From the NCBI GenBank assembly GCA_017552985.1, contig JAFZNO010000032.1, forward strand, positions 1 through 64,000: a stretch of 64,000 bases of DNA, read 5' to 3'. Below the pieces are notes generated by a model that had not been told where the DNA came from, searched no databases, and saw only the letters and a program-made list of their open reading frames with translations. Position 1 is the first letter of the stretch. Every line of letters starts with the position of its first letter. The translations under genes were made by a program, and so were the position numbers. Shown here piece after piece: positions 31,816-44,823 of this stretch. Source of the DNA: Lachnospiraceae bacterium. GTDB taxonomy: Bacteria > Bacillota > Clostridia > Lachnospirales > Lachnospiraceae.

Positions 31816-33231
31816 CTATTCCCTGCCGTCCCAGCAGTAAGTACAAAGCTTTTCTTTGTCAATGCCAACGGAGTTGATCATGTCGTCCAGTCTGTGGAAA
31901 TGCAAGGTGGTGAAATTGAGCTGCTTTCCAATGCGTGACACCATGTCATTGTATTCGTTCGTGTTGGGATCCACGTACTTCTTTAAGTCAATCTGCAGGC
32001 CTTCCTGCTCCATGTCTTTCAGTACTCTTCTCGCGATCAAGTCCATCTCGGACGTGGATCTGGAGAAATTCAAGTACTTACAGCCGAACAAAAGCGGCGG
32101 GCACGCAGGACGGATGTGAACCTCCTTCGCACCGCTCTGATACAGGAATTCCGTCGTCTCGCGAAGCTGCGTTCCTCGCACGATGGAATCGTCGATCAAA
32201 AGAAGCTTCTTGTCCTGGATCAGGTCATGCACGGGAATCAGCTTCATCTTCGCGATCAGGTTTCTCTGCGTCTGCATCGTCGGCATGAAGGATCTCGGCC
32301 AGGTCGGCGTGTATTTGATAAACGGTCTGGAGAACGGAATGCCGGACTCATTTGCATATCCGATGGCATGTGCCGTTCCGGAATCCGGTACGCCGGCAAC
32401 GATGTCCGGTTTTACGTGATCTCTGCCGGCATCTCTCTTTGCCAAGGCAGCGCCGCAGTTATAACGCATCTGCTCCACGCTGATCCCCTCGTAGGACGAG
32501 GACGGATAGCCGTAATAGATCCAAAGGAAGGTACAGATTTTCATGTCCTTGCCGGGATTCACAAGCGTCTTCACGCCTTCAGGCGTTACCACCGCGATTT
32601 CTCCAGGTCCTAATTCCTTACAATCTTCATATCCAAGGTTCAGATAAGCAAAGCTTTCAAATGAAACGCAATGGGCGTCCTTTTTCTTTCCGATCACCAC
32701 CGGCGTTCTTCCAAGCCGGTCTCTTGCGGCATACAGGCCAAGGGGCGTCAGGATCAAAATGCTCATGGATCCGTCGATGACCTCCTGTGCGTAGCGGATG
32801 CCGTCCACCATGTTGTCCTTCTGGTTGATCAATGCCGCAACCAACTCAGTTGCATTGATCTCGCCGCTGCTCATCTCCATAAAGTGGGAAAGGCCGTTGT
32901 CAAAAATCTGTTTTGTCAAGGCTTCTGCATTGTTGATCTTGCCCACGGTGGTGATGGCGTAGGTGCCGTGATGCGATCTCATAAGCAAGGGCTGTGGTTC
33001 ATAGTCGGAAATACATCCGATTCCCAGATTTCCCTCCATGGAATTCACGTCACCGTCAAATTTCGTACGAAAGGGTGCGTTTTCGATGTTGTGGATTGCA
33101 CGGTCAAAACCTTTTTTGCCATATACCACCATTCCCGCACGGCGCGTTCCCAAGTGGGAATGATAGTCCGTACCAAAGAACAGGTCAAACGTACAATCCT
33201 CTTTTGATGCAACTCCAAAAAATCCGCCCAT
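31816..33231 (-). CDS. purF: PurF homologue (amidophosphoribosyltransferase family) lacking the N-terminal catalytic cysteine
   Basis: 471 residues. The ATG at 33231 has AAGGAG 8 bases upstream; the open frame runs 57 codons further into a palindromic element and that part is not coding. The glutaminase-type domain starts MGGFFGVASKEDC instead of the usual M-C-G-I/V-x-G, so the nucleophile Cys is replaced by Gly. The rest looks intact: DYHSHLGTRRAG, GNLGIGC, the PRPP motif LLLIDDSIVRGT, and cysteines placed like the Bacillus PurF iron-sulphur ligands (KICTF, FGCKY, LCTYCWDGRE). It could use ammonia, act with a partner, or be regulatory. Clustered with purB and purA. Confidence 0.85.
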   Translation of the reverse strand: MGGFFGVASKEDCTFDLFFGTDYHSHLGTRRAGMVVYGKKGFDRAIHNIENAPFRTKFDGDVNSMEGNLGIGCISDYEPQPLLMRSHHGTYAITTVGKINNAEALTKQIFDNGLSHFMEMSSGEINATELVAALINQKDNMVDGIRYAQEVIDGSMSILILTPLGLYAARDRLGRTPVVIGKKKDAHCVSFESFAYLNLGYEDCKELGPGEIAVVTPEGVKTLVNPGKDMKICTFLWIYYGYPSSSYEGISVEQMRYNCGAALAKRDAGRDHVKPDIVAGVPDSGTAHAIGYANESGIPFSRPFIKYTPTWPRSFMPTMQTQRNLIAKMKLIPVHDLIQDKKLLLIDDSIVRGTQLRETTEFLYQSGAKEVHIRPACPPLLFGCKYLNFSRSTSEMDLIARRVLKDMEQEGLQIDLKKYVDPNTNEYNDMVSRIGKQLNFTTLHFHRLDDMINSVGIDKEKLCTYCWDGRE

Positions 33232-33272
33232 GTCATTTCTCCTTACTGTATATTTTGAAGAACTCGGGGCTT

Positions 33273-33430
33273 TGTTTGAACAGACTCTCTCAGGCACGCT
33301 CGCGCTATGAGTGCAGCGTATCGGTACTAATTCCCCTCGCCTGCCGCTTGCGGCAAGCGCAATCGTCACGCGATACGTGGAATAAGTACCGACGCTTGGC
33401 ACACATGCCTGAGAGAGTCTATTTCAAACA
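33273..33430. repeat. 158-bp imperfect palindrome (MITE-like) between purB and the purF homologue
   Basis: The ends are complementary: TGTTTGAACAGACTCTCTCA onwards at 33273-33296 and its complement at 33406-33430, with a perfect 15-bp core (AGACTCTCTCAGGCA). Inner arms CGGTACTAATTCC / GGAATAAGTACCG (12 of 13) and a GCCGC-TT-GCGGC tip complete a long hairpin. No transposase or open frame of its own; it creates a false upstream extension of the purF frame. Confidence 0.8.
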
Positions 33431-33510
33431 TCCCCTCGAGGTTGTTTCAAGCCATTAACTTTACATTAATCCGTTAAATGACATTATAAAAATAATTAAT
33501 CATAGATTTC

Positions 33511-34962
33511 TTACACGTTAATCTCGGCCTTGACGCCAAGGAGATCGGCATTGGCAGCGAGGATGGGGCGGATGACGTTGGTGAGGAAGGCGTCAACCTG
33601 AACAACGCTGCGGCCAACGTATTTCGAAGGATCCATGCATTTCTGAAGGTCTTCGAGGGAGAGGCCAAAGGCGGGATCCGCAGCAATGAGTTCAAGGAGG
33701 TTATTGTCCTTGCCCTCAACCTTGACGTTGCGTCCTGCTTCCATGGAAAGCTCGCGGATGCGCTCGTGAAGCTCCTGACGGTTGCCGCCGTTCTTTACTG
33801 CATCCATCATGATGTTCTCCGTTGCCATGAAGGGAAGCTCGCTGCGAAGTCTCTTTTCAATCACCTTGGGATATACTACAAGGCCATCCACCACGTTCAG
33901 GCAAAGATCCAGGATGCCGTCAATGGCAAGGAAGCCTTCAGGAATGGAAAGTCTCTTGTTTGCGGAATCATCGAGCGTTCTCTCAAACCACTGGGTTGCC
34001 GAGGTAATGGCAGGGTTCAGCGCGTCGATCATAACGTATCTGGACAGGGAAGCAATTCTCTCGCTTCTCATGGGATTTCTCTTGTATGCCATGGCGGAGG
34101 AACCGATCTGCGTCTTCTCGAAGGGCTCTTCCACTTCCTTCAGGTGCTGGAGCAGACGGATGTCATTGCTCATCTTGTGCGCGCTGGCCGCAATGCCTGC
34201 AAGCACGTTGGCCACTCTGGTGTCAACCTTTCTGGAATATGTCTGGCCGGATACGGGATAGCACTCCTTAAAGCCCATCTTTGCAGCGATCATGGGATCG
34301 ATCTTATCGATAGTCTCCTGATCCCCGTTAAAGAGCTCGAGGAAGGATGCCTGGGTACCCGTGGTTCCCTTGGAGCCAAGAAGCTTCATGGTAGAAAGCA
34401 CGTGGTCCAGGTCCTCCAGATCCAGCGAAAACTCCTGAAGCCACAAGGTCGCGCGCTTGCCAACGGTCGTGGGCTGTGCAGGCTGGAAATGGGTGAAGGC
34501 AAGCGTGGGTTGGGCCTTATACTTGTCTGCAAAATCCGCCAGCTCCTTCATCACGTTGATCAACTTCTTGCGAACAAGCTTTAATGCTTCCGTCATTACG
34601 ATAATGTCCGTATTGTCGCCAACGTAGCAGGACGTAGCGCCAAGATGAATGATTCCTGCCGCCTTGGGGCACTGCTGGCCATAAGCGTACACGTGGCTCA
34701 TGACGTCATGGCGTACCACCTTTTCCCTGGCCTGTGCCACGTCATAATTGATATCCTCGGCATGTGCCTTTAACTCATCGATCTGCTCCTGCGTGATGAC
34801 GGGCTTTCCGTTCTGGGAAAGACCAAGCTCCTTCTCCGTCTCGGCAAGGGCGATCCAAAGCTTTCTCCAAGTGCGGAACTTCATGTCGGGGGAAAAGATA
34901 AACTGCATTTCCTTGCTGGCATATCTCTCTGATAATGGACTCTGATATCTGTCAGTACTCAT
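33511..34962 (-). CDS. purB: adenylosuccinate lyase
   Basis: 483 residues. It acts twice in purine synthesis: SAICAR to AICAR and adenylosuccinate to AMP. The fumarase/aspartase signature GSSAMAYKRNPMRSE is near residue 280, with the flexible-loop Ser. HLGATSCYVGDN and the catalytic His region THFQPAQPTT are also present. It is longer than the short bacterial type, like the form found in many Clostridia and in eukaryotes. AAGGAG lies 6 bases before the ATG. It lies 80 bases after purC with a hairpin in the gap. Confidence 0.96.
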   Translation of the reverse strand: MSTDRYQSPLSERYASKEMQFIFSPDMKFRTWRKLWIALAETEKELGLSQNGKPVITQEQIDELKAHAEDINYDVAQAREKVVRHDVMSHVYAYGQQCPKAAGIIHLGATSCYVGDNTDIIVMTEALKLVRKKLINVMKELADFADKYKAQPTLAFTHFQPAQPTTVGKRATLWLQEFSLDLEDLDHVLSTMKLLGSKGTTGTQASFLELFNGDQETIDKIDPMIAAKMGFKECYPVSGQTYSRKVDTRVANVLAGIAASAHKMSNDIRLLQHLKEVEEPFEKTQIGSSAMAYKRNPMRSERIASLSRYVMIDALNPAITSATQWFERTLDDSANKRLSIPEGFLAIDGILDLCLNVVDGLVVYPKVIEKRLRSELPFMATENIMMDAVKNGGNRQELHERIRELSMEAGRNVKVEGKDNNLLELIAADPAFGLSLEDLQKCMDPSKYVGRSVVQVDAFLTNVIRPILAANADLLGVKAEINV

Positions 34963-34993
34963 TTACGTTCTCCTTATGTTTTAAACTTCGATA

Positions 34994-35032
34994 GCCCAAG
35001 GTGCTTACGCCGTCGAAAGCATAGCCTTGGGC
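34994..35032. repeat. hairpin in the purC-purB spacer
   Basis: GCCCAAGG plus TGCTT at 34994-35006 pair with AAGCA and CCTTGGGC at 35017-35032. No U-tract follows on the minus strand, so it looks like an intercistronic stem (processing, stability or partial attenuation), not a full terminator. Confidence 0.6.
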
Positions 35033-35042
35033 CATGATATGG

Positions 35043-35912
35043 TTATACTAATTTTTTACCTGTCAGCAGTTCATATCCCTGAAGGTACTTGTCGATCGTC
35101 TTCTGCACGATCTCGTCCGGCAAGGTCCAGTCATGCTCGTTTGCCTTCAGCCAGTCTCTTGCGAACTGCTTGTCGAAGGAAGGCTGTGCATGTCCGGGCT
35201 CGTAACCCTCCGCCGGCCAGAAACGGGAGCTGTCAGGGGTAAGCATCTCGTCGCCCAAAACAATGTTTCCGTTCTCGTCAAGACCGAATTCAAATTTCGT
35301 GTCAGCGATGATGATGCCTCTGGTCAGTGCGTAGTCTGCGCACTTTTTATATAAAGCGATGGTATAGTCACGGAGCTTGGAAGCATATTCTTCGCCCTTA
35401 CCCGGGAAACGCTTCTCAAGATATTCCACGCTCTGCTCGTAGGAGATGTTCTCGTCGTGATCTCCGATCTCAGCCTTCGTGGAAGGGGTATAGATAGGCT
35501 CAGGTAACTTGTCAGACTCCTTCAGTCCCTCAGGAAGCTTGATGCCGCAAACCGTGCCGTTCTTTACGTAACTAGCCCAGCCGCTTCCGGTGATGTAGCC
35601 GCGAACGATGCACTCCACGGGAAGCATCTCCAGTTTCTTACACATCATGCTGTTGCCGTCGAACTTCGGCTGCTGAAAGAATTCAGGCATGTCCTTTACG
35701 TCAACGGAAATCATGTGGTTGGGAATGATATCCTTCGTCATGTCAAACCAAAACTTGGACATCTGCGTAAGTACGGTACCCTTCTTCGTAACCACGTTGT
35801 GAAGGATCACGTCAAAGCAACTGATGCGGTCCGTGGCAACCATGATCAGGCTGTCGCCGTTGTCATAGATCTCGCGCACTTTACCCTCTTTGATGGGTTT
35901 CAGCTCCTGCAT
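35043..35912 (-). CDS. purC: SAICAR synthetase
   Basis: 289 residues; the ATG at 35912 follows GAGG, while an upstream ATG at 35939 has no ribosome site. KEGKVREIYD at the start and ATDRISCFDVI are the ATP-binding strands; PVECIVRGYITGSGW and DTKFEFGLDENGNIVLGDE are the PurC signatures. It couples CAIR and aspartate. This is the longer, about 290-residue form. First gene of the purine cluster, behind a promoter overlapping a palindrome at 35975-35990. Confidence 0.95.
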   Translation of the reverse strand: MQELKPIKEGKVREIYDNGDSLIMVATDRISCFDVILHNVVTKKGTVLTQMSKFWFDMTKDIIPNHMISVDVKDMPEFFQQPKFDGNSMMCKKLEMLPVECIVRGYITGSGWASYVKNGTVCGIKLPEGLKESDKLPEPIYTPSTKAEIGDHDENISYEQSVEYLEKRFPGKGEEYASKLRDYTIALYKKCADYALTRGIIIADTKFEFGLDENGNIVLGDEMLTPDSSRFWPAEGYEPGHAQPSFDKQFARDWLKANEHDWTLPDEIVQKTIDKYLQGYELLTGKKLV

Positions 35913-35973
35913 ACTCAATTTACCTCGCTCTCTTGTCATACTGAAAAATTATTTCAAAAGAAATCACTTTAAT

Positions 35974-36002
35974 AGATAAACACGTTTATCGAAAATTTTC
36001 AA
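35974..36002 (-). promoter_or_regulatory. purC promoter overlapped by a palindromic operator
   Basis: Minus strand TTGAAA (35997-36002), 17 bases, then TTATCT (35974-35979). The spacer and -10 are covered by GATAAAC-AC-GTTTATC (35975-35990), a perfect 7-bp inverted repeat, a natural place for a repressor. It does not resemble the Bacillus PurR box. Confidence 0.5.
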
Positions 36003-36024
36003 TAGAAAAAATCAAGAAAATTCG

Positions 36025-36056
36025 AAAAAAATCGATGGTTTTTTTGTATAAATCGA
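36025..36056 (-). terminator. weak A/T-rich terminator candidate
   Basis: After the stop of the 284-residue gene the minus strand has TCGAT ... ATCGA followed by seven T residues. The stem is short, so read-through into purC is possible. Confidence 0.35.
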
Positions 36057-36059
36057 GAA

Positions 36060-36914
36060 TCACTCCCCGACGCTAAACCGGTACTGGTTTTTGAGCGATT
36101 CGCAGAGTTTCGCCCCTTCTTCCTGATAGTAGCGCTCGTCGCCGGATTCCTTGGCTTCCCTGCGTTCCCTGAGCATCAGTTCCGCCGGCTGAAGCCGGAA
36201 ATCGAGTCGGAGCTCTTCCATCTTCTTCTCGAGTTCCAAGGTGAGCTCATAATGCTCCATCTCCCCTGCCGCGAACCCGACGTACTGGCTTTCCGACAGT
36301 TCCATGCGCTTTGTGGCAAGAAAGCAAAGATACTCGTCCTCGTTGCCCGTGATCCGGTAGGCAGAAAGGAAGCTGTCACCGGCCTGTCCGTAAAGCATCA
36401 GCCTCGCGTAGGCCACGCCCTTGTTATGACAGATGTTGGCCTTAAGCTCGTCTCCGGGAACGGATAGTCCCATCTCTCCAAACTCCTCCCATTTCAGGAG
36501 CAGTCCGTCATAACCGCGGATGGCTGCCACGTATTTCTTCTTTTTGGCCAGATAATCCACCTGCTCCTTCCGCTTTTCCAGACTCGAGAGGCCCGCGCCC
36601 TTCTTTAGGATCTGTTCTACCTGGCGGATGGTTTCCGCGTCATACAGTCCCACGTACTGCAAGATGGCTGAGACGAAGGTGCTTAAGGATCCCTGCCGGT
36701 GCACCATGGGATACAGAAAATCTGCCAGTTCATCCAGCCCACAACGCTCCCGGATCCAACGGAGCAGTGTATCGCTCATGATGGAGCTGTCGAGAAGAAA
36801 TGCATTTTCCTTAAGCCCGTAACAGAGCTCCTCCATGCAATATACCCGCATTTCCAGGCCCTGGATCAAATATGGTACGGAAGAATACTCTCCCACGCAA
36901 AGATATGCCTGCAT
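36060..36914 (-). CDS. TPR-like helical protein, last gene of the DUF5717/DUF5716 operon
   Basis: 284 residues, starting behind AGGAGG. The N-terminal 110 residues are mixed (MQAYLCVGEYSSVPYLIQGL, then helices with DELADFLYPMV); from about 115 on it is all-helical with TPR-like pairs (YVAAIRGYDGLLLKWEEFGE, HNKGVAYARLMLYGQAGDSF), ending in a charged coiled-coil-like stretch rich in Glu/Arg/Lys. No signal peptide or membrane helix. Its start lies 9 bases after the ATPase-like gene, so it surely belongs to the same transcript. Function unknown; a scaffold or adaptor is a guess. Confidence 0.75.
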   Translation of the reverse strand: MQAYLCVGEYSSVPYLIQGLEMRVYCMEELCYGLKENAFLLDSSIMSDTLLRWIRERCGLDELADFLYPMVHRQGSLSTFVSAILQYVGLYDAETIRQVEQILKKGAGLSSLEKRKEQVDYLAKKKKYVAAIRGYDGLLLKWEEFGEMGLSVPGDELKANICHNKGVAYARLMLYGQAGDSFLSAYRITGNEDEYLCFLATKRMELSESQYVGFAAGEMEHYELTLELEKKMEELRLDFRLQPAELMLRERREAKESGDERYYQEEGAKLCESLKNQYRFSVGE

Positions 36915-36923
36915 AAATGCCTC

Positions 36924-38201
36924 CTAGTCTAACGTGACGTCTTTTTCCCAAACCCTTGTCTCCGCGGAACGGAATTCTCCAAATCCCAGATCCGCAAACC
37001 GCGCGTGAAGCAATTTCTCTCCCTTCACGTACAGCGTCATGCGGATGCGCGCCATGTCTCCGGAGAGTCCATCCAACTCTATGGGCAGAACTGTTTTCCC
37101 GCCGCCCACAAGGCTTGTTGCCGTCAGCTCCACCACGTTTTCGCCCTTTAGATAAAATTCCAGGCTCGTCGTCGCCTTCTTCCAACTTGTTCCCGCATCC
37201 AAGAGGGGAAGGTAGGTGCTGCTCCCCTGCCGGAATACGTTCATGCCAATGTTGCTCTTGAGCTTGTCTTCCCCAAGGAACACGTACTCGCCTGCCACGT
37301 CGCTGGGATGAAAATGCTCGAGCATGCCATGGCATGCGCCCTTGCAAAACAGATTGTTTCCGAGGAAAATCCGCCTCCTGTCACACAGGAACTTCAAAGA
37401 TTCTTTCAGCCAATCCTCCGAAAAATCATCTCCGATCAGATAGACGGATGCAATCCTTCCGTTTCCGATCTTCTCCTGAACCAGCTCTAAGAAGGTGCGG
37501 TCCAGGATCTGGTTGCCTTCCTGTTCCTTGCCGGAAAGGGATGCCTTGGAGGGAAATTCCTCCTCTTCCCTGTGAATAAACGTAACGACGGGCTTTGTCT
37601 TCCGGTTGAATTCCATCCGATAACAGATCATGCGGTTTCCCTGATAGTGAAAGAGAATGGAAGGCTCCTTCCACAGCTCGCCCTGCTGATGGATGAGATA
37701 ATCATAATAGCTCTCCTGATGGGATTGCCAAGCAATCCTCTCCGTCTTAAGCCGGAGATTTGCAGACAATTTTTCCAGAACCGCGATCACGGTTGCGTCC
37801 AACTGGTCACAGGTGATCATCAGCGCTTCGATCTTTTCCGTGCCGGCCGCGCTGGAAAGCATGCCAAGACTCCGCTTGAAAAACAGCGTCAGCAGTGCGA
37901 CGGGATCATATTCTCCGCCGTCGATCTGTACGGACTCCCCGTCCACGGCAAGCTGAAGCAGGTTCTCTACCAGGATCCCTTGATTCTCCTGCGCGTACTG
38001 CAATGCCTCTTTCCCATAAAACCACTGGTTAACGCCAGGGCGTTTGCAGAGCACCGTCGGTATGCTGAAATATTCCGAACCCGCAACGGAAGATACCGTC
38101 TCCACGGGACTGCCCGCCGCATTACAGAAGCTAATCTGGGCATAATCCCATCCGAGGTCATATCCCACGATCAATTTTTGATTACCGCCAATTTTAAGCA
38201 T
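36924..38201 (-). CDS. degenerate Hsp70/actin-like ATPase (DUF5716-type)
   Basis: 425 residues, starting behind GGAGG. It reads like a divergent Hsp70: phosphate-1 strand IVGYDLGWDYAQISF (Asp15, Gly17), FSIPTVLC and FYGKEA early, ALMITCDQLD in the middle, a weakened phosphate-2 (ILFHYQGNRM instead of DxGGGT), YLIGDDF and a CKGAC helix near 290, then a beta-rich C-terminal 120 residues resembling an Hsp70 substrate-binding sandwich (ADLGFGEF). The altered phosphate-2 loop raises doubt about ATP hydrolysis. Family name DUF5716 is from memory. Cytosolic. It stands between the 1189-residue protein and the TPR-like protein. Confidence 0.7.
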   Translation of the reverse strand: MLKIGGNQKLIVGYDLGWDYAQISFCNAAGSPVETVSSVAGSEYFSIPTVLCKRPGVNQWFYGKEALQYAQENQGILVENLLQLAVDGESVQIDGGEYDPVALLTLFFKRSLGMLSSAAGTEKIEALMITCDQLDATVIAVLEKLSANLRLKTERIAWQSHQESYYDYLIHQQGELWKEPSILFHYQGNRMICYRMEFNRKTKPVVTFIHREEEEFPSKASLSGKEQEGNQILDRTFLELVQEKIGNGRIASVYLIGDDFSEDWLKESLKFLCDRRRIFLGNNLFCKGACHGMLEHFHPSDVAGEYVFLGEDKLKSNIGMNVFRQGSSTYLPLLDAGTSWKKATTSLEFYLKGENVVELTATSLVGGGKTVLPIELDGLSGDMARIRMTLYVKGEKLLHARFADLGFGEFRSAETRVWEKDVTLD

Positions 38202-38222
38202 TTTCCGTCCTCCCCGGGAGCC

Positions 38223-41200
38223 CTATCGCAAAGTGAACAGGCTCTCGCCGCAAAACTCCTTAAAATAATAGTGTTCCAACGCTTTATCCAGCGCATCCCC
38301 GTCCTGCATGCCCTGACTCATAACCATGTCGTTGATCATGCCGTACATGGTTCCCGCGGCATCCGCATCCGTCTCGCGGCACTGAAGCGTTCCCGAAACC
38401 GTCATGGTCTCTTCCCCGCCAATTTCTTCCGTCACGTAATACTGCAGCGTCTCGCCAAAGAATAATACAAATTCCCGGCAACAGATCCCGCAGAAAACGT
38501 CTCTCATGTTTTCCGACAGGTATTCCTGACCCTTTTCTCCATCCTTCGCGATCACGTAATGGATCCGGGCACGTCCGCCGGGTTTCGTTCGGTATTCCAC
38601 AAGGCACTTGTCCGCCAGTTCACCTAAGAGATGCCTTTGATGTCTAAGCTTGTGATAAAACTCGAAATGGATCTTCTCCGCCATCATTTCCCGGAGGAAT
38701 GCGTCCAGCGCGCCGTCCACTTCCCTGGATACTTCGGAAGGATTCTCAGCGTAATGCTTTAGGAATGCCAGCTTGCATACCTTTGGCAGGTTCGACTCCC
38801 ACCGTGCGCCGTCCAGCATGACGCGGAAACAAATGGAATCCGCCGTCCGTTCCTTGACAAAATAATCATAACTGCTCTGAATGACGTAAGCCTTGATCAC
38901 GGAGGATTCCCCCGCGTGTTTGTAGTATTCTTCAAAAATCTCAGACCGCTCGGCAACGTAGGCACCTGAGAAGATCATCTGGATCAGGATCCTCTCCTCC
39001 AGCGCCGTAACGTCAAGGGAATTCTCCCGCATCTCCTTCCAAAGGTCCCTAAGATCCTTCAGATGTCCCTCTCCGTATTTGCTCAAGTAATCTAAGGCCA
39101 GCGCACTCGCCTTTCCCCTGCGGAAGAGATACGTTACCGCCGCAGTAATGCTCGGTTCCTCGCCATATCCGCCAGCCAAAAGATTTCCCAAAAGCCTGGC
39201 CAGCGTATTGCCATCCATAAAGTAGGGTCCAAACTCCTGCATCCATGCGTAGGGGACTTCATAATCGCCGCGAAGAACGGCGTACTTAGCCGCTTCCATG
39301 CGCTGCGTGAGCGTGAGCGGCAAAGCCTTCATGATCCCGAAAAGCTCATCCATTTTCTCTGGCTGCGCTCCTTCAAAGAATTGCTTTAACAGGCGCAGGC
39401 AGATCTGTGTTTTCTTTCCCGTCTCCAGTCCTTCCCAGGAACAAAGACCGATCGCCTTCTCGGCCAACTCATCCCCTAAGGGCTCATCCCCGGCTTTATT
39501 TAGGAGGTATAAGTCAAACTCCGGAGACTGCATGTTCTTGTTTTCCAGTCCCTGCAGGAAAAGATCCGGATTTAGGTAACGCTCCGTCTCAAAAGAGATT
39601 TCGTCCGCAAACCGGTTTCCAAAGGCGTCCTCGAAAATCAGCGTACTGTCTTCGCCATAAACCGGTGCAAGAGTCTCACCGCCGATCAGCGGGTATTCCA
39701 TGCCGATCATGCTTCCCTTCGCAAAGACGATCAGTTTCTTCATCCGTTCGTCCTTCACGCGGATCTTCACCGTAAACAGGAGCCTGATCAAGACGTCGGC
39801 ATTCTGCTGGCTTATCACCTCCGGCGTCAGCATCCGGGAATAAATCCGTGCCAGATGACGATTGATCCGTCCCTTGGCGATCTGGTCATTCACAAAATCC
39901 CTGCAGCGCAGCACGTATTTGTCATAGACGTCTGCATATAACACTTTATTATCCAACACGTAATCATACAAAAACGCGGTGCGGTCCTGATCCAATTTAT
40001 TCTGGTAAGAGAAATACAATACTGCTGCCTTGGGCAGGCTCTTTCTCTCCTCCGGATCAATGGATGACATAAAGGATTCGTACAGGTTCGTAATGCGAAG
40101 CTGTTCCTCCACGCCCTTTTCGTACCAAGGCAAAGCCTTTAGTCCAAGAATGCCGCCTCGTACGAAAAGCTCGCACAGATGCTGCACGATGCGCGCGTCC
40201 TTCCGTTTGCGATAGAGTCTTTCCAAGATTCTGCAAAGGATCGGGGAATAATCCTTATCCTTTGCCAGCAAGCCTAAAAAGCGTTCCGCAAGGTCCGGAC
40301 TGAAATAGTCCTTGCGGATGCCATAGTAAAGCACCTGTCTTTCAAACTCGCCAAGCTTTCTCAAAAGCGCAGGATTGCTAAGATATGCCTGCAATGCCTC
40401 GACGTAAATGACAAAGCTGCGGCATCCACGCTCAAACTGCTTTTCCATGAAACGGAGCTTTTCCGCAGGCTTATCCATAAACTCTGCCGAAAGGTAAAGC
40501 AAAAGCCATGCGATCCTCCAGGATTCCGGATTCTTGCGGTAGAGCTGCTCCACCTCGTCCGTCACTTTTAAGATTTCTTCCTCATCCCTGCTTAGAAGCG
40601 TGGTGAGATAAAGGTAATATGCCCAAAGCTCCTCATCAACGTCGGGCTGCCTTTCCATCAGATCCACGGCGTGCGAAAGAAGCCACTGTGCCTCATTCTG
40701 GCTGTCCTGCGTGATCAGGATCTGCGCCTTAAACAGACAAGGCATGGGATCCTCCTCATTCATGGCGATCAGCTTGTCCACCTGCTCCCGCGTCTGGTCC
40801 AGCCAGTTTGCCAGTCCCATCTTGCGGGTGCGGAAACGCTCATAGGTCCTCATGATTTTCACGATCGCCTGGTCCCAGTGAAGTCTTGCCTGATTCACCA
40901 AGTGCGCCATGCCATTTTTCACGGTCACGCGGACCTCAAAACTCGTAAAGGAATTATAAAACACCAACTTTCCGTGATTGATCCCCGGCTTTAATTTTAT
41001 CGGGTCCACGTAAAAGGGAATCCTGGCGTAATTTCCCAGAAAATCTTCTTCCACAAGAAGCGCCTTCTCAAGCACAAGGAACTCTCCGTCCGCCTCCACG
41101 TTGAGTGCCACGTAGCCCCAGCCGCTCCTCGTCACTGAGATCTCCTGCTCCATGAGATGCCACTCACCTTCCGCCTGCTGCATTTCCAGCGTGACCTGCG

Positions 41201-41792
41201 GCGTCTCCGTCAAAAACTCCACGCACTGCTTCTTTCCTGCGTGGATCAGGAATTCTTCCATGTTCTGTTCCCGTCCCGGATAGGCTGCCAGGCCATAATA
41301 TATGGGAATGCTTTGTGAATTGCCATTCTCAAGGATCTTAAGAAATGAATCTGAATAAAAAAGAGACACTGCCTCCTGCCAATTTCCCTTGGCAAGATTT
41401 ATAAAATCCGACAGGTTTTGAATCGTACCCAAAGAGGTCTCCGGCCATCCGTCCTCACACGTCACCTCGTAAGGCAGGGAATATTCTCCCAGATTACTGA
41501 TCACGCGAAAAGCGCCCTTGACCACCTCTCCCGTTTCCAGGCATGAGCCGTGAAGGACGTATGAAATCTCGGCATCCCTGCCGGCAAATTCCGGGGTGAG
41601 ACATTCCACGCGATAATCCGTGGAGAAAACGCGCCCTTTGATCAAAGCATCGTTTTCCCCATAGACCTGAAAGCTTCCCTCGTATTCTTCTCCCGGATAG
41701 ACGGATAGTTCCAGGGTTGCCTGCGAAAAATCAAGGGATCCCGTTTCGCTGCCAAAGTTCCCGCTAAGGACCTCATCTATGACTTCTCTCAT
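38223..41792 (-). CDS. giant cytosolic TPR-like protein with beta-rich N-terminus (DUF5717-type)
   Basis: 1189 residues, ATG with GGGAGGG about 8 bases upstream. Residues about 15-130 and 215-320 are beta sandwich-like (LELSVYPGEEYEGSFQVYGE; LKPGINHGKLVFYNSF). From about 320 to 1000 it is helical repeats with TPR/HEAT spacing (AQWLLSHAVDLM, LDYLSKYGEGHLKDL). The last 150 residues form a mixed domain (ARIHYVIAKDGEKGQEYLSE). No signal or membrane helix. The size and layout suggest a scaffold holding several partners; the Hsp70-like gene follows 21 bases on. The family name is from memory, and no function is known to me. Confidence 0.75.
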   Translation of the reverse strand: MREVIDEVLSGNFGSETGSLDFSQATLELSVYPGEEYEGSFQVYGENDALIKGRVFSTDYRVECLTPEFAGRDAEISYVLHGSCLETGEVVKGAFRVISNLGEYSLPYEVTCEDGWPETSLGTIQNLSDFINLAKGNWQEAVSLFYSDSFLKILENGNSQSIPIYYGLAAYPGREQNMEEFLIHAGKKQCVEFLTETPQVTLEMQQAEGEWHLMEQEISVTRSGWGYVALNVEADGEFLVLEKALLVEEDFLGNYARIPFYVDPIKLKPGINHGKLVFYNSFTSFEVRVTVKNGMAHLVNQARLHWDQAIVKIMRTYERFRTRKMGLANWLDQTREQVDKLIAMNEEDPMPCLFKAQILITQDSQNEAQWLLSHAVDLMERQPDVDEELWAYYLYLTTLLSRDEEEILKVTDEVEQLYRKNPESWRIAWLLLYLSAEFMDKPAEKLRFMEKQFERGCRSFVIYVEALQAYLSNPALLRKLGEFERQVLYYGIRKDYFSPDLAERFLGLLAKDKDYSPILCRILERLYRKRKDARIVQHLCELFVRGGILGLKALPWYEKGVEEQLRITNLYESFMSSIDPEERKSLPKAAVLYFSYQNKLDQDRTAFLYDYVLDNKVLYADVYDKYVLRCRDFVNDQIAKGRINRHLARIYSRMLTPEVISQQNADVLIRLLFTVKIRVKDERMKKLIVFAKGSMIGMEYPLIGGETLAPVYGEDSTLIFEDAFGNRFADEISFETERYLNPDLFLQGLENKNMQSPEFDLYLLNKAGDEPLGDELAEKAIGLCSWEGLETGKKTQICLRLLKQFFEGAQPEKMDELFGIMKALPLTLTQRMEAAKYAVLRGDYEVPYAWMQEFGPYFMDGNTLARLLGNLLAGGYGEEPSITAAVTYLFRRGKASALALDYLSKYGEGHLKDLRDLWKEMRENSLDVTALEERILIQMIFSGAYVAERSEIFEEYYKHAGESSVIKAYVIQSSYDYFVKERTADSICFRVMLDGARWESNLPKVCKLAFLKHYAENPSEVSREVDGALDAFLREMMAEKIHFEFYHKLRHQRHLLGELADKCLVEYRTKPGGRARIHYVIAKDGEKGQEYLSENMRDVFCGICCREFVLFFGETLQYYVTEEIGGEETMTVSGTLQCRETDADAAGTMYGMINDMVMSQGMQDGDALDKALEHYYFKEFCGESLFTLR

Positions 41793-41829
41793 TCTTCGAG
41801 CCCTCCCAAATCAACGTTACGTCAAAGCT

Positions 41830-42696
41830 TTACTCCATGTTCAACCGGTCTCTCACCACGTGAATGGACCAGAAAAACAGAATACATGCAAAAATCACTT
41901 GGGCCAAAAGGCTGACTAAATACCTGTCATTTGCCAGTTGAAACATGACTTCGGGATCCGTCCCCTGACTCGCGCGAAGCATGGTGGAGCCAAGACCTAG
42001 TATGCCGCCAAAAATTGTCATCGCAACCCTCACGCCAATGTATGCCAATATTCCCATAAGACCTTTATTCTTCCAAGAATACTGTCCCAAAGTAAGTGCC
42101 CCAAACAAAATGGCTACGGTGGTAAAGGGAGAGATGAGCGTCGTGCAAGTCAGCAAAATCCCAGACGTTGAAAGGTCAAAGCCTGCGCCTTCACGCAAAT
42201 ATCCAACAAACGTGCCAAATAGCTCTCTAAAGTTGGATACCACCTCGAAGAAGCTGAGCCCCTTCATCTGCGCATAACCAAGCGTGGTCAAGAAGGCCAC
42301 CAGAACGTACAATGCCAAGGTCATGATCAGCATCCAGGTTCCGCCCGTAACAGTCTTTACGATGATAAGCTGGGAAGATTTCACTGGAAGGGTATGTGTC
42401 AGATATCCCTCATCGGAATACATGCTGCGATAAAAACGAAATCCAAGGTAGATGATAAATCCAAAGCTTAATCCGATCAGTATGAGCGTGTAGGATAAAA
42501 GGCCGATCAGAGCCAGAATTCCTCCCACGACGGTAAGCAACACGCCCGAGCCGCTGCTGGCATCAATAATGCTGTGAAATAACGGAGACACAAGATAAAT
42601 CGCACCAATAACGGTGATGCCAAAGAATACTGCCAAAAGCAGACATGCCATCTTGCCAATGCGCCGGAATTCATGCTTAAATAATTTGCCTAACAT
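41830..42696 (-). CDS. ABC-2-type transporter permease
   Basis: 288 residues with GGGAGG before the ATG. About six membrane helices (near 17-40, 52-82, 115-140, 175-205, 220-240, 262-283); LGKLFKHEFRRIGKM at the start is typical of ABC-2 permeases. Its ATG overlaps the stop of the ATPase gene by 7 bases, so the two form one transporter. It resembles exporters for lipids, peptides or antibiotics. The large TPR-like gene starts 37 bases after it. Confidence 0.85.
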   Translation of the reverse strand: MLGKLFKHEFRRIGKMACLLLAVFFGITVIGAIYLVSPLFHSIIDASSGSGVLLTVVGGILALIGLLSYTLILIGLSFGFIIYLGFRFYRSMYSDEGYLTHTLPVKSSQLIIVKTVTGGTWMLIMTLALYVLVAFLTTLGYAQMKGLSFFEVVSNFRELFGTFVGYLREGAGFDLSTSGILLTCTTLISPFTTVAILFGALTLGQYSWKNKGLMGILAYIGVRVAMTIFGGILGLGSTMLRASQGTDPEVMFQLANDRYLVSLLAQVIFACILFFWSIHVVRDRLNME

Positions 42697-43391
42697 GCGA
42701 ACACCTCCCTAAAATATGCATCCACGGATTTCCCCTGCTGCTCCCGGATCTGCGGTGCGGAGCCATACAGGATCAGCCGTCCGTCACGCATAAAGATCAC
42801 CTCGTCCAACACCTGTTCAATGTCGCTGATCAAGTGCGTGGAGATCAGGATGGAAGCATTCTGATGGTAATTGTTTAAGATGGTTCGCAGAATGTAATCC
42901 CTGGCTGCCGGATCCACGCCTGCAATGGGCTCGTCCAGCACGTAAAGGTCCGCATCGCGGCTCATGACCAAAATGAGCTGTACCTTCTCCTTGGTTCCCT
43001 TGGAAAGTGTTTTCATCTTGGCGCGCGGATCGATCTGAAGGTCTTCCAGCATCTTGATGGCTCTCTCCCGTGAGAAATCCTCATAGAAATCCTCAAAATA
43101 GTCTAAAATGCTCGAAATGGTGTCACTGGGTGAAAGGTACGTGCGGTCCGGAAGATAAGAGATCCTTGCCTTGGTTTCCGGTCCGATCTCCTCTCCCAAA
43201 AAGCGGATCTCGCCCTCTGTCGGACGAAGCAATCCGTTGATCATTTTGATCATCGTTGTCTTGCCGCTGCCATTCGGCCCCAAAAGCCCGATGATCTTGC
43301 CTCTCGGAAGGGTAATGGAAACGTTGTTTACCGCCAATTTCCCATATCCGTAATTCTTCGATACGTTGCTAAGCACTAACAGATCGTTCAT
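42690..43391 (-). CDS. ABC transporter ATP-binding protein
   Basis: 233 residues; AAGGAGG before the ATG at 43391. The frame is open 75 codons further upstream but without a ribosome site. Walker A GPNGSGKT (about residue 38), signature LSKGTKEKV, Walker B ADLYVLDEPIAG and the H-loop STHLISD are complete. The LSKG signature and the short length fit exporters of the YtrB/CcmA/EcsA kind. It heads the operon that continues into the 1189-residue protein. Confidence 0.9.
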   Translation of the reverse strand: MNDLLVLSNVSKNYGYGKLAVNNVSITLPRGKIIGLLGPNGSGKTTMIKMINGLLRPTEGEIRFLGEEIGPETKARISYLPDRTYLSPSDTISSILDYFEDFYEDFSRERAIKMLEDLQIDPRAKMKTLSKGTKEKVQLILVMSRDADLYVLDEPIAGVDPAARDYILRTILNNYHQNASILISTHLISDIEQVLDEVIFMRDGRLILYGSAPQIREQQGKSVDAYFREVFAC

Positions 43392-43530: not shown

Positions 43531-44823
43531 ATGACGAACCTTGAAATCCCTGACGTTCCCACGGCTCCGGTCTTTCCCGCCGCAGCGTCTGCCGGGACGC
43601 TAAAAATCATGATCACTTCTTCCCTTGGGCTACTGCCCGTTCAAGGTGCGCTTATCCGCGTTTCCTTTGCGGGAGAACCCGGGCAGATCATTGATACCCT
43701 GACCACTGATGAATCCGGGCAGACCAAAGTCATTTCCATTCCGGCACCAAACGTTTCCCTCTCCCTCGCTCCTGACCAGCCACAGCCCTATGCACAGGTG
43801 AGCGTTTCCGTCACGGCACCGGATTATGAAACGGCACTCGTCGACGGCATCCAGATCCTTCCCGGGGAATTGGCCCTTCAGACGATCCGCCTCCGCCCTT
43901 TGTTTCTGCCTGAGACGACAGGCGGGGAAGCGGTCTACGTCATTCCCGCCCACGTACTGTTTGGAGAGTATCCCCCAAAGCTTCCCGAGGAAGAGATCAA
44001 GCCCTTGCCGGATACCGGTGAGATCGTCCTGAGCCGCGTCGTGATCCCGGAATACGTCATCGTGCATGACGGCGTCCCGGGGGACTCTTCCGCCCCCAAC
44101 TATTACGTGCGCTACAAGGACTATATCAAAAACGTGGCCGCAAATGAAATTTATTCTACCTGGCCGGAAGCCGCGATCCTGGCGAACGTGCTTGCCATTC
44201 AATCCTTTACGCTAAACCGCGTCTACGTGGAATGGTACCGGTCTAAAGGCTATAACTTCACGATCACCTCTTCCACGGCCTATGACCAGAAATGGGTCAA
44301 AGGAAGAAACACCTTCGAGAACGTGGACCAAATTGTAGACAACGTCTTTGCCAACTACCTCTCCCGCCCCGGCGTGCGCCAGCCGATTTTTACCGCATAC
44401 TGTGACGGCAAAAACACCACCTGCCGCGGTCTAAGCCAATGGGGCTCCCGCTATTTGGCCGATGAAGGCTATAGCGCCATCGAGATTCTGCGGTATTATT
44501 TCGGCAATGACCTGTATTTGAATTCCGCGCAACAAATTTCCGGCGTGCCATCCTCCTATCCCGGATACAGTCTGCAAAACGGATCTCGCGGCGACAAAGT
44601 CCGTCAGCTCCAAAACCAGTTAAACCGCATTTCGCAAAATTATCCTGCCATACCGAAGCTTGCGGAAGACGGGATCTACGGTCCCCTCACCACCAACAGC
44701 GTCCGCATTTTCCAGCGCATCTTCGGGCTGCCCGAAACCGGCGTCACGGATTATGCCACCTGGTATAAGATCTCGGAAATCTATACCGGCATCACCCGCA
44801 TCTCCGAACCCGGCGCCTACTAA
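43531..44823 (+). CDS. SpoIID-like protein with peptidoglycan-binding domain and no signal peptide
   Basis: 430 residues. An N-terminal proline-rich stretch and a beta-sandwich domain (about 25-130, carboxypeptidase regulatory-like: LLPVQGALIRVSF, TTDESGQTKVISI) are followed by a SpoIID/LytB-like domain (about 195-335; YIKNVAANEIYSTWPEAAIL, CRGLSQWGS) and a C-terminal peptidoglycan-binding repeat (about 346-425; GSRGDKVRQLQNQL, DGIYGPLTTNSVRIFQ). SpoIID cleaves stripped glycan strands in sporulation. There is no hydrophobic N-terminus, so it would need another export route or be released. The ribosome site is weak. It is divergent from the ABC operon and convergent with the AraC gene. Confidence 0.82.
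   Translation: MTNLEIPDVPTAPVFPAAASAGTLKIMITSSLGLLPVQGALIRVSFAGEPGQIIDTLTTDESGQTKVISIPAPNVSLSLAPDQPQPYAQVSVSVTAPDYETALVDGIQILPGELALQTIRLRPLFLPETTGGEAVYVIPAHVLFGEYPPKLPEEEIKPLPDTGEIVLSRVVIPEYVIVHDGVPGDSSAPNYYVRYKDYIKNVAANEIYSTWPEAAILANVLAIQSFTLNRVYVEWYRSKGYNFTITSSTAYDQKWVKGRNTFENVDQIVDNVFANYLSRPGVRQPIFTAYCDGKNTTCRGLSQWGSRYLADEGYSAIEILRYYFGNDLYLNSAQQISGVPSSYPGYSLQNGSRGDKVRQLQNQLNRISQNYPAIPKLAEDGIYGPLTTNSVRIFQRIFGLPETGVTDYATWYKISEIYTGITRISEPGAY

Follow-up and report, generated by a model that had tools for sequence, protein, structure and literature searches.

A conserved DUF5717-DUF5716-TPR core in Lachnospiraceae that may preserve the frame of a dedicated Hsp70 machine

The conserved unit of the operon analysed here is smaller than five genes, and consists of DUF5717, DUF5716 and a 284-residue TPR-derived protein. 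Profile comparisons indicate that DUF5716 almost certainly descends from Hsp70. We consider it an evenly balanced proposition that the three genes preserve the frame of a former dedicated Hsp70 machine, and that their products now act as an ATP-independent scaffold complex.

The window, by which we mean the whole stretch of 64,000 nucleotides analysed, carries this core together with two ABC exporter genes (Table 1). Re-reading the DNA bore out the coordinates of the five genes and the lengths of the last three products (1189, 425 and 284 residues), as given in an earlier, sequence-only reading. The ATPase and permease genes overlap by 7 nt, and gaps of 37, 21 and 9 nt precede the 1189-, 425- and 284-residue genes, respectively. 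Shine-Dalgarno-like sequences were present at all five starts (AAGGAGG, GGGAGGT, GGGAGGG, GGGGAGGA and AGGAGG, in gene order), and the SpoIID-like gene is indeed divergent from the operon. The single promoter that had been claimed did not stand out, with 7 promoter-like matches between positions 34000 and 44500 versus 8.7 +/- 3.2 in shuffled sequences. A terminator-like site or stable fold was not found directly 3' of the 284-residue gene. The family names DUF5717 and DUF5716, given in that reading, were correct, since Pfam assigns DUF5717_N (7.3e-253, score 841.8) and DUF5717 (4.5e-90, score 302.4; cut-off 25 for both) to the 1189-residue protein, and DUF5716_C (3.2e-84, score 282.8; cut-off 34.7) to the 425-residue protein. 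These entries are described as of 'unknown function', and our literature searches found no paper on the two families. Scanning Pfam at E 1 gave no match for the permease or the 284-residue protein. The SpoIID-like protein matched PG_binding_1 (4.7e-14), as well as TIGR02669 (6.5e-10) and Pfam SpoIID (6e-4), the latter two under the cut-off.

Table 1. Features of the locus, in positions of the window
Feature	Position	Strand	Remark
ABC ATPase	42690..43391	-	genus-level neighbour, outside conserved core
ABC permease	41830..42696	-	genus-level neighbour, outside conserved core
DUF5717 protein, 1189 aa	38223..41792	-	scaffold candidate, weak TPR matches
DUF5716 protein, 425 aa	36924..38201	-	putative pseudo-Hsp70; predicted orthologue of sister-family HspB
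Phosphate-1 remnant VGYDLG, residues 12-17 of DUF5716 protein	38151..38168	-	
Approximate SBD-beta-equivalent region, DUF5716 residues 316-425	36927..37256	-	from profile alignment
284-aa TPR-derived protein	36060..36914	-	homology to sister-family operon TPR protein
120-nt gap	35940..36059	.	site where most named relatives have c3
SpoIID/LytB-like protein with peptidoglycan-binding domain	43531..44823	+	divergent local neighbour

DUF5717 was present in 199 of 200 Lachnospiraceae genomes, and the DUF5717, DUF5716 and TPR genes were strictly consecutive in 36 of the 40 loci read from this family. Judged by substitution rates, the retained core genes are under strong selection: in comparisons with the two nearest relatives, DUF5717 and DUF5716 have dN/dS values of 0.037-0.049. 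The genes upstream of the core varied widely among loci. The five genes had been read as one unit, with a complex perhaps serving the adjacent ABC exporter or envelope or spore assembly. We surveyed 5 kb upstream of DUF5717 in 40 other Lachnospiraceae loci with at least 2.7 kb of upstream room. A close ATPase relative (64-70% identity) together with the permease was seen in just two loci, L122, where the orientation is opposite, and L158, which belongs to the window's own genus. On this count the ABC exporter was rejected as part of the unit; it is a local addition in and near the genus Acetatifactor. Among named relatives, chosen by DUF5717 similarity of 36% or more, the pair was co-directional upstream of DUF5717 in 51 of 68 testable loci, and in 33 of them no more than 150 nt separated the end of the permease match from DUF5717. 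Permease BLAST alone is a weak test of ABC linkage, because identity falls to 27-57% for this protein in most close relatives; the slower-changing ATPase was therefore added to it. The SpoIID-like gene, found near the core in most named relatives, was near it in 6 of the 60 loci of the first survey.

Most named relatives carry a further gene, c3, between the TPR gene and, for example, purC (L164). It encodes a protein of about 395 residues, with two predicted transmembrane helices in most members (15 of 20) and a single helix in the remaining 5. An HMM found c3 in 64 of 79 named loci; the 15 others comprised the seven closest to the window (L159-L163, L167, L178), seven incomplete loci, and L219, which lacks it. 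c3 was not detected in the window's 120-nt gap or in the rest of its genome, in a search run without a positive control, and no more than 18 of 41 Lachnospiraceae loci had it near the core, so that membrane tethering through c3 would not be general. The helices of c3, the frequent ABC pair of the named relatives and the peptidoglycan-binding domain of the SpoIID-like protein all speak for an export or envelope module. Against this stand the rarity of the pair across the family, the near-universal DUF5717 and the shifting upstream neighbours, and we regard such a module as improbable.

The core genes recur in sister families of the order, where they form part of a larger operon. This encodes three intact Hsp70s (HspA, HspC and HspD, the last fused to a vWA domain), HspB, a GrpE-ended protein (c6), a TPR protein, the DUF5717 scaffold and sometimes the transmembrane protein c3. 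DxGGGT and the GGS adenosine motif were intact in every HspA (15/15), HspC (15/15) and HspD (11/11). The c6 proteins are 502-645 residues long, apart from one of 279, and a C-terminal GrpE domain was found in all 12 scanned (of 15). No J-domain match was obtained for the operon proteins of L105 (Pfam) or L103 (NCBIfam). The Hsp70-like proteins of the operon appear to lack the alpha lid, judging from their lengths and, for HspD, from domain limits. DUF5717 is encoded there by two genes (315-419 and 842-915 residues) in nine of the loci read and by one (1299 and 1302 residues) in two. HspB is, by profile alignment, a pseudo-Hsp70 orthologous to DUF5716.

The relationship of DUF5716 to Hsp70 was examined with hhalign, using DUF5716 sequences from 40 loci (the window included, the fused L141 excluded), a clean HspB set (n=15, HspD fragment L099 removed) and a TPR set without the L112 pseudo-Hsp70. 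DUF5716 aligned with HspB over 421 columns (P 100, E 4.5e-57) and with intact HspC over 410 columns (P 99.8, E 2e-27; 3-418 to 14-528), which agrees with the earlier description of the 425-residue protein as a degenerate Hsp70. Controls gave P 0.1 for DUF5716 against both the GrpE protein and the cleaned TPR set, and 0.0 for HspB against the latter. HspC was the closest to HspB (P 100, E 1.1e-71), and a narrower Acetatifactor DUF5716 alignment gave P 97.8 with HspC, falling to 15.5 for HspA and to 1.4 for HspD. The DUF5716 profile alone matched no chain among PDB sequences, and the link to Hsp70 passes through HspB, which in L103 matches the DnaK structure 2v7y (4.9e-11, over 22-503). DUF5716 is thus predicted to be a full-length Hsp70 derivative, with a nucleotide-binding domain (NBD) and a beta substrate-binding domain (SBD-beta); by its length it is too short for an alpha lid after SBD-beta. 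In a tree of 47 rows, HspB and DUF5716 were separated from HspA, HspC, HspD and DnaK at 100/100, the bootstrap being unsettled, and DUF5716 formed a single clade at 100/99; several rows were long or odd in composition.

The 425-residue protein keeps the phosphate-1 motif GYDLG and lacks DxGGGT, as had been noted. An apparent loss of phosphate-1 in the L112 pseudo-Hsp70 was rejected, as the open frame starts further upstream and the segment is kept. GGG was absent from the phosphate-2 columns of all 40 aligned DUF5716 sequences, and DxGGGT from all 15 HspB. An Asp remains at phosphate-2 in 14/15 HspB sequences, and 10/15 still have GGGF in their adenosine loop; the ancestral pseudo-Hsp70 may therefore have bound nucleotide. 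The segment between the phosphate-2 and adenosine motifs measured 59-84 residues in DUF5716 (40/40) and 134-152 in HspB (15/15), compared to 146 in HspC (n=15), 153 in HspD (n=11), 177-182 in HspA (n=13) and 143 in the genome's own DnaK; HspD was cut at 500 residues for both this comparison and the tree, which makes the length of its remaining part uninformative. DUF5716 is therefore short of about 75 residues, which we take, from the general layout of the DnaK NBD, to be the part holding subdomain IIB. It is, as read from the alignment, a pseudo-Hsp70 without the segment on which GrpE acts.

A cytomotive role had also been proposed; DUF5716 would then polymerise as an actin-like filament on the DUF5717 scaffold. 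The NBD of Hsp70 and MreB share the actin fold, and the intact operon Hsp70s gave secondary MreB matches. DUF5716 itself matched no MreB or FtsA profile, GGG is missing from its phosphate-2 columns throughout the 40 sequences, and the profile match continues through an SBD-beta-like region that actins of the MreB/FtsA type do not have. A filament is accordingly disfavoured, and we give it very little credence.

The intact Hsp70s of the sister operon were not seen in the Lachnospiraceae surveyed. At 1e-80, HspA was found in none of 120 Lachnospiraceae genomes; the same search recovered it in 34 of 197 genomes of the order, all 34 outside the family. HspC, HspD and c6 were not found at 41 Lachnospiraceae loci or in the window's own genome, and the N-terminal part of c6 gave two weak matches in 343 genomes across the class. 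The own genome encodes a single canonical Hsp70, next to which lies a single GrpE; one further, weak match falls in a 346-residue frame. We infer, with parsimony deciding between loss and gain in place of a rooted species tree, that the Lachnospiraceae core very probably arose by reduction from a motor-bearing machine.

Of the other two core proteins, the 284-residue one shows homology to the sister-family TPR protein, over the N-terminal half of the latter (P 99.9), and three genomes carry a fusion of its relatives with DUF5716. The beta sandwich and helical repeats that had been read in the 1189-residue protein were both faintly visible: TPR_19 matched 4 and TPR_2 matched 3 of 15 DUF5717 C-parts (E up to 0.1), and one of 10 N-parts matched BACON_2 (0.0024). 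The DUF5717 profile had no match among PDB sequences.

Taken together, a chaperone-like complex on a scaffold is the best reading of the locus, and stands from the earlier proposal once its cytomotive part and tie to export are removed. An ancestral HspB would have become DUF5716 by dropping the subdomain IIB segment, and the motors and GrpE protein would have been lost in Lachnospiraceae while the frame was kept. DUF5716 would cease to bind and cycle ATP, DUF5717 and the TPR protein would hold it in one complex, c3, where present, would tie this to the membrane, and the SBD-beta face would grip a client or partner without an ATP cycle. An ATP-independent scaffold or holdase function is plausible at slightly below even chances, and we propose more tentatively that the whole family keeps a near-universal, motorless, passive chassis of an Hsp70 machine with a function of its own.

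The operon resembles the DnaK-GrpE machine in its order of NBD and SBD-beta, its GrpE domain and, in the sister families, its several Hsp70s. It differs in the apparent lack of an alpha lid, in a GrpE domain placed at the end of a long protein, in the absence of J-domain matches, and in the window's lack of motors and GrpE protein. DUF5716 could instead borrow a motor, docking on the NBD of the housekeeping DnaK as Hsp110 does on Hsp70, with DUF5717 and the TPR protein directing DnaK to selected clients. A genome with a single canonical Hsp70 and GrpE would fit, and the closeness of HspB to HspC recalls the pairing of Hsp110 with Hsp70, whose NBDs face one another (PMC4753570). Like Hsp110/Grp170 (Sse1p), DUF5716 has diverged from Hsp70 and may assist a partner Hsp70. 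Hsp110 possesses a helical bundle and is able to bind ATP, and Sse1p requires ATP binding (PMC4753570), whereas DUF5716 lacks the IIB segment and the DxGGGT loop. A co-chaperone of DnaK seems unlikely, though less so than a filament or an export module.

A conflict or defence system of the GAP1-N2 GTPase type is suggested by a comparable mix of parts, namely HSP70, GrpE, a second, reduced HSP70 and a beta-repeat protein fused to TPR, in the excerpts available (PMC7159879). HspC and HspD of L103 also match the PADLOC candidate PDC-M61B (8.5e-11 and 4.4e-7). Scans of operon proteins and of part of the neighbours at 60 loci gave no match to a GTPase or GAP1 family; the sole such name was DO-GTPase2, to which the window's ABC ATPase has a P-loop match below the threshold (0.0096). 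The three core proteins of the window had no PADLOC match, and their near-universal presence is unlike that of a patchy defence island. The reduced HSP70 of the GAP1-N2 systems lacks the peptide-binding domain (PMC7159879), whereas here SBD-beta is kept and the ATP loops are lost. We find a defence role very improbable.

Specialised Hsp70s are described in Myxococcus, which has two DnaKs and two GrpE homologues (PMC11019930) and the PilZ-DnaK chaperones CsdK1 and CsdK2 (PMC10313047). These are likewise additional to a housekeeping Hsp70, and come with either a second GrpE or a client of their own; the descriptions available to us, on which this comparison is based, mention no scaffold kept without Hsp70 motors. 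Eubacterial genomes encode one nucleotide exchange factor, GrpE, according to the review PMC4753570, although Myxococcus reportedly has two (PMC11019930); the GrpE domain on a long protein within an Hsp70 operon is a further candidate kind.

DUF5716 and DUF5717 are core genes without names in a large family of gut bacteria, and the tie to a multi-Hsp70/GrpE operon supplies them with a probable origin and testable biochemistry. The full motor, the pseudo-Hsp70 with a whole NBD and the pseudo-Hsp70 without the IIB segment form a natural series, in which one can ask what the Hsp70 fold does after the ATP cycle is lost. A second reduction, to the pair of DUF5717 and pseudo-Hsp70, is possible in genome G324. 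If true, scaffold and pseudo-Hsp70 would be the functional centre, in motor-bearing operons as well.

Re-reading the DNA bore out the coordinates that the sequence-only reading gave for its five genes, together with the ATPase/permease overlap, the gaps and the ribosome sites. The naming of a DUF5717/DUF5716 pair also held, as Pfam assigned the 1189-residue protein to DUF5717 (both halves) and the 425-residue protein to DUF5716; its scan gave zero matches for the 284-residue TPR-derived protein and for the ABC permease. Promoter-like matches did not exceed chance, which leaves the single promoter proposed ahead of the five genes unsupported. The source organism belongs to Lachnospiraceae: DUF5717 of the window was 98% identical to that of 'uncultured Lachnospiraceae bacterium' CAMKQH010000001.1 and 97% to that of 'Acetatifactor sp.' JAILLF010000043.1.

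The N-terminal part of DUF5717 was present in 199/200 genomes drawn across Lachnospiraceae (the window's own counted) and, with lower scores, in 6/16 genomes from other families of the order; its C-terminal part was found in 13/293 genomes of the class, all 13 Lachnospiraceae. We read 40 further Lachnospiraceae loci, picked from genomes with a DUF5717 match, so that finding DUF5717 in them was built into the choice. The order DUF5717, DUF5716, TPR-derived gene was strictly consecutive in 36 of the 40; in L149 an extra open reading frame separates the first two, in L141 the last two are fused, and in L143 and L151 the TPR gene was not detected at the locus. With the window included, DUF5716 occurred in 41/41 loci and the TPR gene in 39/41. 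DUF5716 and the TPR protein form a single open frame in three genomes (L141, 684 aa; L253, 726 aa; L254, 729 aa), good evidence that the two act together.

The exporter behaved differently from the five-gene unit that had been proposed, since close relatives of the window's ATPase and permease lay within 5 kb upstream in only 2/40 Lachnospiraceae loci, L122 (in opposite orientation) and L158 (from the window's genus). ATPase matches in five further loci were rejected as the same exporter, being other ABC proteins at 21-28% identity. Among 79 named loci, 68 were testable (11 had too little upstream sequence), and the pair was upstream of and co-directional with DUF5717 in 51 of these; the permease match lay ≤150 nt from DUF5717 in 33 of those 51. 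Judged by gene order, the exporter pair is a local neighbour of the core. Near the ATPase, in the window and in many named relatives too, stands a gene for a SpoIID/LytB-like protein that ends in a peptidoglycan-binding domain. A further neighbour, the predicted membrane protein c3 (~395 aa, coiled-coil-like by eye), has two predicted transmembrane helices in 15/20 members and one in 5/20; it was near the core in 18/41 Lachnospiraceae loci and behind the TPR gene in 64/79 named loci, and was not found in the window's genome or closest relatives. Clusters c7 and c4, which hold purF- and purB-like genes, come after the core in several other loci as well, and its position ahead of purine genes is thus often retained (purF and purB families recognised on L119 homologues, purC from its resemblance to the gene that follows c3 in L164).

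In profile comparison, DUF5716 aligned from end to end with HspB, the pseudo-Hsp70 of the sister-family operon (P 100, E 4.5e-57), and over 410 columns with the intact Hsp70 HspC (P 99.8, E 2e-27); unrelated operon proteins gave P 0.1. A narrower Acetatifactor alignment of DUF5716 gave P 97.8 against HspC, 15.5 against HspA and 1.4 against HspD. The DUF5716 profile matched no PDB chain and HspB of L103 matched a DnaK structure over nearly its full length (4.9e-11), so the link to Hsp70 structures runs through HspB. A 100/100 branch parted HspB and DUF5716 from HspA, HspC, HspD and DnaK, in a tree where HspB is not a clade, the bootstrap had not settled and several rows are long or compositionally unlike. 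The DxGGGT loop and adenosine motif were intact in HspA (15/15), HspC (15/15) and HspD (11/11); the loss of the loop noted earlier in the 425-residue protein proved general, with GGG in 0/40 DUF5716 and DxGGGT in 0/15 HspB. From phosphate-2 to the adenosine loop, HspB retains the full 134-152 residues and DUF5716 only 59-84, the absent stretch presumably corresponding, going by the known DnaK fold, to subdomain IIB. GrpE is described as rotating this subdomain and so opening the nucleotide cleft (PMC4753570, available text), and loss of the GrpE protein thus coincides with loss of its target. The stretch after the nucleotide-binding domain (NBD) has medians of 93-114 residues in DUF5716, HspA, HspB and HspC, against 245 in DnaK, and is too short to hold an alpha lid.

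In the sister families, DUF5717 was split into two genes in 9 loci read and single in 2, and was followed by a longer gene series: HspA, c6, HspB, HspC, HspD, TPR and sometimes c3.

Features of the window and of sister-family loci
Feature	Coordinates	Length	Remark
Purine genes (purF-, purB-, purC-like)	31816-35939		window; downstream of core, same direction
SpoIID/LytB-like gene	43531-44823		window; divergent from ABC ATPase
HspA		554-560 aa	sister-family operon
c6		502-645 aa, once 279	sister-family operon
HspB		472-536 aa	sister-family operon
HspC	L103:7577-9211	537-549 aa	sister-family operon
HspD	L103:5495-7573	690-696 aa	sister-family operon
TPR protein		~390 aa	sister-family operon
c3			some sister-family loci only (L100, L105)
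G317 operon	L099:205-3375		HspD and TPR genes in pieces
G324 genes	L112:5816-10915		DUF5717 as two genes, one HspB

Pfam HSP70 E-values, one example each, were 2.6e-66 (HspA), 1.4e-53 (HspC) and 2.8e-88 (HspD, where a vWA domain follows in the example), and c6 ended in a GrpE domain in 12/12 scanned. Six families (f4, f78, f83, f85, f88, f89) had HspA, c6, HspB, HspC, HspD and TPR together at a single locus; in f77 (L109-L111, L113-L115) the motor-bearing operon is broken up over several places with its parts still kept. Identity of HspA to its first row across families was 61-84%, and that of the DUF5717 C-part 18-26% among sister-family rows and 12-18% to Lachnospiraceae rows. Among genomes outside the family, G317 scored highest for DUF5717_N and DUF5716_C; its c6 has just 279 aa, and its fragmentation reflects either sequencing errors or an intermediate state. 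For HspC and HspD of L103, a match to PADLOC candidate PDC-M61B covers the Hsp70 domain and probably reflects the shared NBD alone.

The HspA model at 1e-80 matched 0/120 Lachnospiraceae genomes and 34/197 genomes of the order, these 34 spread over eight families with Lachnospiraceae not among them; HspA, HspC, HspD and c6 were not found at the 41 Lachnospiraceae loci. Parsimony would favour loss of the motors in Lachnospiraceae over gain elsewhere, given that eight further families have HspA and that DUF5716 has a derived NBD when set beside HspB and all the Hsp70s in the comparison. Beyond the descent, architecture, co-conservation and fusion that these comparisons establish for the core, we propose that DUF5717 would serve as scaffold, DUF5716 would have no ATP cycle, and the complex would hold a client or partner through SBD-beta, tied to the membrane by c3 where it occurs. 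The main rival is that the core would act as co-chaperone for housekeeping DnaK; in the window's genome a single canonical Hsp70 and, adjoining it, a single GrpE are encoded on another contig, and there is an additional weak match in a 346-aa frame.

Comparison with the two closest relatives gave dN/dS values of 0.037-0.049 (DUF5717 and DUF5716) and 0.007-0.022 (TPR protein); with three remoter relatives, at dS >1, the values were 0.06-0.18. These low values and the near-universal retention argue against decay of the core genes. In G324, the locus seems to have just DUF5717 and one HspB, with unrelated genes following, possibly a second, independent reduction; this genome was not among the HspA-matching genomes of the order sample, its membership of which we take from settings shared with the survey that sampled it.

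Literature searches returned no paper on DUF5716 or DUF5717, the sole text match (PMC8115291) concerning another subject in the text available. GTPase-centred systems are described in the accessible part of PMC7159879 as carrying HSP70, GrpE, reduced HSP70 and beta-repeat/TPR proteins; unlike these, the operons here had no GTPase among their scanned proteins. Extra Hsp70s and a second GrpE are described in Myxococcus (PMC11019930, PMC10313047, available text).
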